Assembly: GCA_022414725.1 (NCBI GenBank)
Contig: CM039462.1
Location: 8,621,212-8,685,211 of the forward strand
Length of the DNA: 64,000 nucleotides
Reading direction: 5' to 3'
Source of the DNA: Microglena sp. YARC
Lineage: Eukaryota > Chlorophyta > Chlorophyceae > Chlamydomonadales > Chlamydomonadaceae
Below the pieces are notes generated by a model, which was given only the letters and a program-made list of their open reading frames with translations, searched no databases and had not been told where the DNA came from. Made by a program: the position numbers and the translations under genes. The stretch's first letter is position 1, and the number at the start of each line of letters is the position of its first letter. Shown here piece after piece: positions 1 to 58,630 of this stretch.

Positions 1-258
1 CTTCCTGCGTGGTTCAAGGTCTTGGCGACATCCCCCCCCACCCACCCACACACACACCCACCCACCCACACACAAAAACATACACCTGTATAACACCCAC
101 GTGCAGGCTGACAGAGAAGCAGTGCAACAAGCTGATGGCAGGATGTGGCCTAGACTTCCTGTGTGGTCTAGGTCTTTGCGACAGTCCCCCCCCCACCCCA
201 CACCCCACCCCACCACCACACACAAAAGACACACACCTGTATAACCACCCACATGCAG
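1..258 (+). repeat. Partial exon copies upstream of the first TPR exon
   Basis: Two truncated copies of the 259-405 exon lie at about 1-30 and 105-190. They share the CTAGACTTCCTGTGTGG segment and the acceptor-side GCTGACAGAGAAGCAG. They are separated by C-rich and CA-rich simple sequence. The copies break off in poly-C where the parent continues, so they have no donor. Confidence 0.7.
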
Positions 259-3200
259 GCTGACAGAGAAGCAGTGCAACAAGCTGATGGCAGAATGTGG
301 CCTAGACTTCCTGTGTGGCCTAGGTCTTGGCGACAGTCACATCCTATACAACTCAGTAGCTAAGAAAGGATTTTTGACGTACGATGGGATGTGCCATGTA
401 TATAGGTGAGTCCTTCAATCACCTGCAAAGGGTGTGTGTGGGGGGGGGGGGAATTTATATGGGATATAACCAGGATACTAACATTAAAAATAAATGTATA
501 TATATATATATATTATATTATATATATATTATATATATATTATTATATATATACAAGAAAGGATTTTGAACGTACGATGGGATGTGCCACGTTTATAGAT
601 GAGTCCTTTATCACCTGCAAGGGGGGGGGGGGGATTATATGGGGATGCAGTGGGGATGTACAATATAAAAAAAAATCCCTATATCAATGATATACACAAT
701 AAAATACTTTTGACAAACAATGGGATGTGTGTCAGTGTCATTTTAGCAATTCAGCGGATGAATTGAATTTGGGTTTCGTAGGACGCAGTTCGTACCTCAA
801 CTTTTCAGGCAAAATTCCAGCAATTCTCACAATTCTTAGAAATTCTCAGAATTCTCGATTCTCGGGCCAAGTGTCAGAATTTCAATTCTTAGGCCAAAAT
901 GTCAAAAATTCTCGATTTTCAGGCCAAAATGTCAGAATTCTGGCTTCTATCTTATCTTACTCATCCTGCATGATTTGCTTATTGAATACTGTGGAGCGCT
1001 GCAATAAACCCACCCATCCCCCGCCCATCCAACTACAGATTGCTAAGCAATCGGGTCTTCTATCTCCTCTAATTCATCTTGCCTGATTTGCTTATTGAAG
1101 ACTGTGGAGCGCTGCAATAAACCCACCCATCCCTCACCCATCCAACTACAGATTGCTAAGCAATCGGGTCTTCTTATCTTCCTCTAATTCATCTTGCCTT
1201 GATTTTGCTTATTGAAGACTGTGGAGCGCTGCAATAAACCCCACCCATCTCCCCTCACCCATCCACACTACAGATTGCTAAGCAATCGGGTCTTCTATCT
1301 CCTCTAATTCATCTTGCCTGATTTGCTTATTGAAGACTGTGGAGCGCTGCAATAAACCCACCCAATCCCTTCACCCTCAACTAAGATTGGCTAAGCAATC
1401 GGGTCTTCTATCTCCTCTAATTCATCTTGCCTGATTTGCTTATTGAAGACTGTGGAGCGCTGCAATAAACCCACCCATCCCCCGCCCATCCAACTACAGA
1501 TTGCTAAGCAATCGGGTCTTCTATCTCCTCTAATTCATCTTGCCTGATTTGCTTATTGAAGACTGTGGAGCGCTGCAATAAACCCACCCATCCCTCACCC
1601 ATCCAACTACAGATTGCTAAGCAATCGGGTCTTCTATCTCCTCTAATTCATCTTGCCTGATTTGCTTATTGAAGACTGTGGAGCGCTGCAATAAACCCAC
1701 CCATCCCTCACCCATCCAACTACAGATTGCTAAGCAATCGGGTCTTCTATCTCCTCTAATTCATCTTGCATGATTTGCTTATTGAAGACTGATTTGCTTA
1801 TTGAAGACTGATTTGCTTATTGAAGACTGAAGACAATAAACCCACCCATCCCCCACCCATCCCCCAACCATCCTCCACCCATCCAACCACAGAGTTCTCA
1901 GCAACCGCCAAGGTTTACTGTCCGACAGAATTGCAGAGGAAGCAAGAGCGCGCGACGAAGCGACTGCCAGGCAAGCTGAGTCCCTTAAGGCCCAACGCAG
2001 TGTCACATCAATTAGTTTTGCAACCCTCCCTCCCAAGCCCGCCACCACACCTGCCAGCAAGACCGCGGCGCCAGCTGGGGAGAGCACCAGCGGCCCCAGT
2101 ACCAGCTCAGCTTTCGGAGGAACCTACTCCGCATCCGCAACTGGTAGGTATTAATTACCTGCACCTGCCTGTGCAAACAAATACATAAATAAATACAAAT
2201 ATATAAATAAATACAAATATATAATACATACAAATAAATGAATAAATAAATACAAATAACAGCAAATAAAATAAAATAAAATAAAGTTAAATACAAATAT
2301 GGAAATATATACAAGCAATCATTCACTTATAACCTGTGCCTGCATGTGCAGAAAAATACTTCAACACATAAATAAATACAAAGTAATCCAGGAAGTAATC
2401 ATTCACTTATAACCTACTCCGCATCAGCAGCAGGTCGGTATTTATTCCTGCACCTGCCTGTGCAGGCAAATACATAAATATATAAATAAATAAAAGCAAT
2501 CATTCATTTATAACCTGTGCCTGCCTGTGCTGGCAAATACATAAATAAATAAATAAATAAATAAAAGTAATTATTCATTTATACCTGCACCTGCCTGTGC
2601 AGACAAATACATAAATATATAAATAAATATAAGTAACCATTCATTTATAACCTGTGCCTGCATGTTCAGAAAAATACAACAATAAACAAATACAAAGTAA
2701 TCATCTATTTATAACCTACTCCGCATCGGCTACAGGTAGGGTGGCCTGTGCTTTCAGATAAAAAGAAAATAAGAATAAAAGATAAGGAAAAAAGAAAAAA
2801 GAAAAAAGAAAAAACAATTGAAAATAAAAATAAAAAGAAATGGAAGAAAAATAAAAAGTAAGAAAAAGTAAGAAAAAAAGAAGAAAAAGAAGAGGGAAAA
2901 AAGGAAAAGGAAAAAGAAAAAGAACGCCTGGTGCCTGGAACCTACTCCGCATCCGCAACGGGTAGGGCAGCCTGTGCTTTCAGATAAAGAGAACATGATT
3001 ATAAAATAAAAGAAATAACGAAAAATAAAATAGAAAGAAAATAAATTAAAATTAAAGTAACAGAAAAGAAAGAAAAAGAAAAAGAAAAGGAACGTGTGGG
3101 GCATGTTGTTAAGGTAACACCTGTATGCCTGTGCATACATTCAACTAGTTCCCCCAATTTATGACAGATTTTGATAGACAAATCCACAACTATAATGCAC

Positions 3201-58428: not shown

Positions 58429-58630
58429 CTAACGAGGAGCTGGTGGTGGTGAGGTGGCGTAAGTGCTAGCTAACGAGGAGCTGGTGGTGGTGAGGTGGCG
58501 TTAGTGCTAGCTAACGAGGAGCTGGTGGTGGTGAGGTGGCGTTAGTGCTAGCTAACGAGGAGCTGGTGGTGGTGAGGTAGCGTAAGTGCTAGCTAACGAG
58601 GAGCTGGTGGTGGTGAGGTGGCGTTAGTGC
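58388..58630 (+). repeat. GNAT terminal exon tandem copies across the stop
   Basis: Six copies of GCTAGCTAACGAGGAGCTGG then TGGTGGTGAGG, period about 41-44 bp. The first copy is the real C-terminus (ANEELVVVRR) with stop at 58426. The others follow in the 3' UTR and each again contains TAG. Confidence 0.9.

Follow-up and report, generated by a model that had tools for sequence, protein, structure and literature searches.

The window, that is, the whole 64,000-nucleotide stretch of DNA analysed here, corresponds to positions 8621212 to 8685211 of contig C1 in the alga's 568-Mb genome of 2390 contigs. It carries a TPR gene on the plus strand, an acyl-CoA oxidase gene (ACX) on the minus strand from 50453 to 29829, and a GNAT gene on the plus strand (Table 1). 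Sixteen ACX exons were placed at AG and GT sites, exons 1 to 12 by means of a database protein (P0001) and exons 13 to 16 by means of more distant homologues. Because P0001 matches the exons of the window at 100% within the exon limits, we take it to come from the same organism; the best ACX matches that carry a name include proteins of the chlorophytes Sanguina aurantia, Chlamydomonas sp. UWO 241, Trebouxia, and Volvox, which makes the Chlamydomonadales a likely home for this green alga. With the sites chosen, the junction of exons 14 and 15 (31554 to 33127, minus strand) is out of frame, and the true junction may involve a different donor or one more exon; the same intron 14 holds a dense minisatellite with a 37-bp unit (31676 to 32760). 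A homologue search with the TPR gene returned nothing at E <= 0.001, and comparison with solved structures gave no meaningful match. The GNAT result concerns one exon core, whose Pfam match (PF13508, 26.9 bits) falls slightly below the cut-off of 27.

Several other features share the window. Telomere-like CCCTAAA tracts occur in the TPR gene region (3893 to 4084 and 7645 to 7717), a run of 45 G lies at 11160 to 11204, and pure C runs of 26 to 33 lie at 13061, 23757, 33078, and 36636. A stretch free of local repeats between the TPR and ACX genes contains a 1,004-amino-acid open frame with a reverse transcriptase domain (19080 to 22091, plus strand; PF00078, 104 bits), which we label LINE-like by eye. 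Open frames on opposite strands at 26017 to 27042 (plus) and 27014 to 28042 (minus) have, by eye, a common C-terminal protein sequence and form an inverted duplication whose halves meet near 27028; a Pfam scan of the minus-strand frame gave no match. Long open frames at 60007 to 63792 (minus) look retroelement-like by eye, and a Pfam scan of those at 60010 to 61218 and 62269 to 63792 was likewise without a match.

Repeats in the window are predominantly local and direct. TRF gave 238 rows, and near self-matches numbered 245 on the same strand versus 9 inverted. The same 245 near matches compare with 21 far ones on the same strand, a ratio that bears on introner elements, in which one element is dispersed over many loci. 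Local repeats are missing from the stretches at 17 to 26 kb, 48 to 51 kb, and 59 to 64 kb. In the ACX introns, 64% of base pairs lie in some local direct repeat and 32% lie in arrays spanning an exon edge.

Table 1. Exons, exon cores, and their local copies in the window (minus-strand positions run from high to low, except in the last column)
Feature	Strand	Exon or core	Copies before the exon	Copies after the exon	Whole extent
TPR core T2	+	4899-5012		5048-5126, of 3' part	4899..5126
TPR core T3	+	6631-6909	seven, of 5' part, 5172-6533	two, of 3' part, 7018-7407	5172..7407
TPR core T4	+	7890-8066	two, 7555-7801	four, 8297-8853	7555..8853
TPR core T5	+	9688-9768	five, 8968-9587	two, 9885-10456	8968..10456
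GNAT core	+	54141-54290	nine, 52652-54082		52652..54290
ACX exons 1-3 (without copies; in local-repeat-free stretch; internal contrast)	-				48960..50453
ACX exon 4	-	47414-47317	six, acceptor side, 47867-47449		47317..47867
ACX exon 5	-	46520-46363		donor side, 46102-45950	45950..46520
ACX exon 6	-	45114-44969		donor-side array, 44713-43951	43951..45114
ACX exon 7	-	42215-42136	acceptor copy, 42485-42455	donor copy, 42092-42068	42068..42485
ACX exon 8	-	41334-41162	three acceptor copies, 41563-41380	three donor copies, 41087-40673	40673..41563
ACX exon 9	-	40230-40118	acceptor copy, 40419-40374		40118..40419
ACX exon 10	-	38696-38582	six, acceptor side, 39609-38822		38582..39609
ACX exon 11	-	37302-37240		donor copy, 37056-37013	37013..37302
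ACX exon 12	-	35667-35552	upstream copies, 36088-35751	donor-side copy, 34924-34851	34851..36088
ACX exon 13	-	34309-34234	one, 34463-34411, of exon nt 1-53, 100% identity		34234..34463
ACX exon 14	-	33395-33127		donor copy, 33076-33005	33005..33395
ACX exon 15	-	31554-31477		five donor copies, 31407-30867	30867..31554

Each exon was searched against the 3.5 kb on both of its sides. Local copies accompany 12 of the 16 ACX exons and 12 of the 14 internal ones, the same number as in the preliminary description of this DNA; copies of exons 1, 2, 3, and 16 were not found within 3.5 kb on either side. Upstream copies repeat the first part of their exon and downstream copies the last part, with one exception, an upstream stretch of 25 nt that matches the middle of exon 12. 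When the alignments were extended, most ACX copies continued across the splice site into intron sequence. Many copies are adjacent, and others are spaced and non-adjacent (a shift of 154 with a match of 56 at exon 13, and a shift of 227 with a match of 52 at exon 11); the spacing of such copies is beyond simple tandem duplication unless later change is invoked. In the TPR gene, five of the six definable exon cores have copies, the one at T1 being a single 18-nt copy, and none were found for T6.

The same arrangement recurs elsewhere in the genome. A search for kinesins gave 128 exon matches, 20 of which were dropped by eye as long, stop-rich, or weak. Among the 108 rows analysed, eight parent exons had at least one shorter match near them on the same strand; downstream copies share the profile end and upstream copies the profile start to within six positions, the parent at C1:30457901 being ambiguous in that its copy nears both ends of the match. 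The 13 kinesin pairs include one formed with a stop-rich neighbouring piece and two in which a copy is matched with another copy. A single HSP70 parent and a single TCP1 parent also fit this side rule at the protein level, in tables judged by eye. Eight kinesin loci were then read as DNA, yielding 141 copies at 20 of 22 exon pieces. Five of the loci (L023, L024, L027, L028, and L029) had been picked with a protein-level copy already visible; the three picked without one (L025, L026, and L030) have copies at 9 of 10 exon pieces. Kinesin splice sites were predicted with a simple custom score, and the acceptor of L030 exon 2 was poorly predicted. The view that unrelated genes carry tandem duplications of an exon edge, its splice site, and adjoining intron is thereby borne out for ACX, the kinesins, TPR cores T2 to T5, and the GNAT core: the copies are head-to-tail, same-strand repeats of one unit, though some are spaced.

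The geometry of the copies is strict. All 183 (42 from ACX and 141 from kinesins, belonging to 38 exons or exon pieces) lie on the same strand as their exon. For the side rule we counted only copies containing 12 nt of exon or more, 175 in number, and took an edge as passed when the copy ran at least 5 nt beyond it. Copies that pass the acceptor are upstream in 85 of 85 cases and those that pass the donor are downstream in 58 of 58, in agreement with the earlier observation that donor-type arrays follow exons and acceptor-type arrays precede them; the remaining 32 pass neither edge by 5 nt and are outside the rule. In a separate count of splice sites, 75 of the 76 acceptor copies were upstream and all 50 donor copies were downstream, the sole exception being a downstream copy at the poorly predicted acceptor of L030 exon 2. 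Up to nine copies span a single edge. The smallest shifts in 43 edge arrays from ACX and the kinesins range from 57 to 702 bp, with 35 of the 43 between 60 and 240; the periods of 65 to 170 bp first reported overlap this range, but the spread is wider.

In a test for exon duplication, none of the 175 copies carried both exon edges. If units were placed at random over the edge, between 1.98 (conservative count) and 6.02 (liberal count) of the 43 arrays would be expected to hold the whole exon, and none did; the probability of this outcome is 0.086 or 6.7e-5, respectively, and depends on how unit length is taken. This deficit is strong only if counted liberally and weak if counted conservatively; it is a hint, short of proof, that two-sited copies have been removed. 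Breakpoint microhomology was considered in 61 arrays of at least 95% identity (36 of them two-copy); only 16 had a non-negative overlap, several of these inside larger arrays.

Two other origins for the copies have to be weighed against this geometry. Repair of breaks with capture of DNA from the vicinity (synthesis-dependent strand annealing, SDSA), as in vertebrates, would fit the several copies that are set apart from their parent by other sequence, and its products in human are of suitable size and proximity (up to 619 bp, mean 162 bp, within 5 kb; PMC2671141). We nevertheless consider it an unlikely replacement for head-to-tail duplication, given that 183 of 183 copies have one orientation, compared with an exon copy in opposite orientation described in the same text, and that many arrays are regular multi-copy rows. 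Expansion of repeats by mis-assembly is hardly credible. Stretches of N that may be assembly gaps do occur elsewhere in the genome (1,000 bases in L006 and 4,673 in L021), but the window has no N at all, and mis-assembly would not be expected to yield the side rule. Simple assembly error is unlikely because the copies are about 12% diverged from their parents and 62 of 211 have frame-breaking indels.

The fate of the copies was followed in a codon test of these 211, covering ACX exons 1 to 14, the kinesin pieces, TPR T1 to T5, and the GNAT core. Mismatches between copy and parent at codon positions 1, 2, and 3 amount to 0.084, 0.078, and 0.168, and distinct changes per covered site amount to 0.161, 0.152, and 0.291. 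A neutral copy of a parent that is free to change only at third positions should give about 1:1:2, and protein selection on the copies should give far fewer changes at positions 1 and 2; the copies fit decay as neutral copies of a constrained parent. Many decoy splice sites had been proposed, and there are many: 126 copies span a site, with a mean difference from the parent of about 12%, and AG or GT is intact in 102 of them (81%; AG in 59 of 76 acceptor copies and GT in 43 of 50 donor copies). Copies within an array are not independent, 9 of the 17 lost AG sites coming from one array in L023. At about 0.08 changes per site in the copy, some 84% of dinucleotides would stay intact under neutrality; the observed share is close to this value, so within this sample the decoys seem to be neither removed nor retained. 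It is very unlikely that the edge copies are retained for a function, as alternative splice sites or regulated decoys. The many intact AG and GT dinucleotides might be taken to speak for such a role, but their survival is near the prediction for neutral decay, and neutrality of the copies also fits the indels and the pattern over codon positions.

We also compared exon edges with other positions, calling a point spanned when a local same-strand copy covers both of its sides. With ACX and the kinesins pooled (37 acceptor and 37 donor positions, the match end being substituted where no site was predicted; the splice-site count used 34 and 36), 62% of acceptors and 54% of donors are spanned (60% and 54% with a low-complexity filter), compared with 73% of intron interiors (64% filtered), 24% of exon middles (24%), and 45% of random genome positions (38%), the latter sampled as 20 fixed 10-kb stretches, of which 18 lie in contig 1. 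For ACX by itself the figures are 12 of 30 edges versus 62% of intron positions, and for the kinesins by themselves 25 of 40 versus 69%; kinesin acceptors (14 of 19, 74%) are slightly above the introns and kinesin donors (11 of 21, 52%) below. In a second comparison, with two random points per intron as anchors in ACX and the kinesin loci that have at least two exon pieces, edge-anchored arrays hold 36.1% of intron sequence and randomly anchored ones a mean of 44.1% (standard deviation, 3.5); 297 of 300 random replicates reach the edge value. Array position is thus independent of exon borders within the genes sampled, a single ACX gene and eight kinesin loci. The edge rate is above that of the random genome, but the random genome probably includes transposon stretches. 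That pooled edges are somewhat less duplicated than introns could mean that decoys carry some cost.

These comparisons do not sustain the earlier suggestion that duplication starts at exon-intron borders, nor the idea that edge arrays differ in kind from other intron repeats: pooled edges are spanned at 54 to 62% versus 64 to 73% for intron interiors, which are duplicated about as often or more, and the arrays anchored at edges hold 36% of intron sequence versus 44%. A prediction that other genes would show the same enrichment fared better in one part, copies being present at 20 of 22 kinesin exon pieces beyond the window, but the pooled edges have no excess over introns. Duplication targeted to the borders, for example by breaks or stalled forks where composition changes between exon and intron, therefore seems quite unlikely to us. 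It would account for the fact that 12 of 16 ACX exons have edge copies and 20 of 22 kinesin exon pieces have copies, for edges being spanned more often than the random genome, and for the rate at kinesin acceptors (14 of 19 spanned, compared with 69% of intron positions). The pooled edges are nevertheless not above intron interiors, edge-anchored arrays hold less intron sequence than randomly anchored ones, and five of the eight kinesin loci were picked with a visible copy, a bias that favours edges.

The reading that we prefer, with a probability of roughly three in four, is that tandem duplication is frequent and untargeted, takes in exon edges along the way, and persists where it leaves the innermost splice site usable. 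Short tandem duplications, mostly with units of 60 to 240 bp and perhaps produced by slippage, unequal exchange, or repair, would strike the DNA regardless of exon borders. A duplication across an acceptor would leave the real exon behind the last copy, and one across a donor would leave it before the first copy, and the message would presumably be unchanged provided that splicing takes the exon-proximal site. Splicing would pass over single-sited decoys, as exon definition, in which the exon is recognised as a unit, would predict, but it would include a copy that has both sites, and selection would then remove that copy. The side rule would then arise because duplication is local and in tandem and the coding sequence must stay readable; more broadly, untargeted duplication filtered by survival of the message would lead to the side rule, neutral decay, the lack of two-edged copies, and the lack of an excess at edges. 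Use of the innermost sites is suggested by reading frame, homology, and one predicted protein, P0001, which uses them across ACX exons 1 to 12.

Exon definition pairs splice sites across the exon and intron definition pairs them across the intron (PMC3488318), and single-sited decoys should matter less under the former than under the latter. We tentatively entertain a stronger reading, to which we give rather less than an even chance: that introns grow by constant untargeted duplication, and that the spliceosome picks the exon-proximal site almost purely by position, among up to nine near-identical copies, with single-sited decoys nearly costless and two-sited ones purged. Were this positional reading true, the genome would offer a natural experiment on exon definition and a standing reservoir for new introns through boundary-crossing duplication. 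If copied splice sites can lie side by side at about half of exon edges (54 to 62% here) without visible harm, the sequence alone can hardly reveal the site in use, and the choice would have to follow a positional rule. The arrays would also supply material for intron gain, which has long been an open question and has few proven cases (PMC4974935). For gene prediction by exon similarity they are a warning, as partial exon copies are picked up in such genomes.

Among the titles and abstracts listed in searches of an open-access library, which lacks most subscription journals, none described such arrays. One of the closest relatives is the RdRp gene of potato, in which, as described in PMC4974935, a tandem duplication across an intron-exon boundary made a new intron; there too the duplication crosses the border and copies the acceptor signals and the start of the exon. 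As far as that account goes, the potato case is one event in one gene with a new intron as its outcome, whereas the alga has both types of edge, many copies per edge, and arrays at most of the exons examined, and its genes are readable without invoking a new intron. The Rogers/Hellsten model, in the summary given there, likewise involves tandem duplication with exon sequence and splice dinucleotides, but the duplicated AGGT-containing piece is exonic and creates an intron, while in the alga existing introns carry the exon edges. Vertebrate repair-mediated proximal duplications (PMC2671141) resemble the copies in being short and local and in that they may include partial exons and splice sites. 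Only 4 of 824 donor sequences in the human set described there were partial exon/intron sequences, with tandem duplications excluded, and, unlike those duplications as there described, the alga has rows of copies in a single orientation at most examined exons. Intronic minisatellites share the head-to-tail units of tens to a few hundred base pairs and the variable copy number; what sets the alga apart from them is that half of the repeat-covered ACX intron sequence (32% versus 64% of base pairs) lies in edge-spanning arrays.
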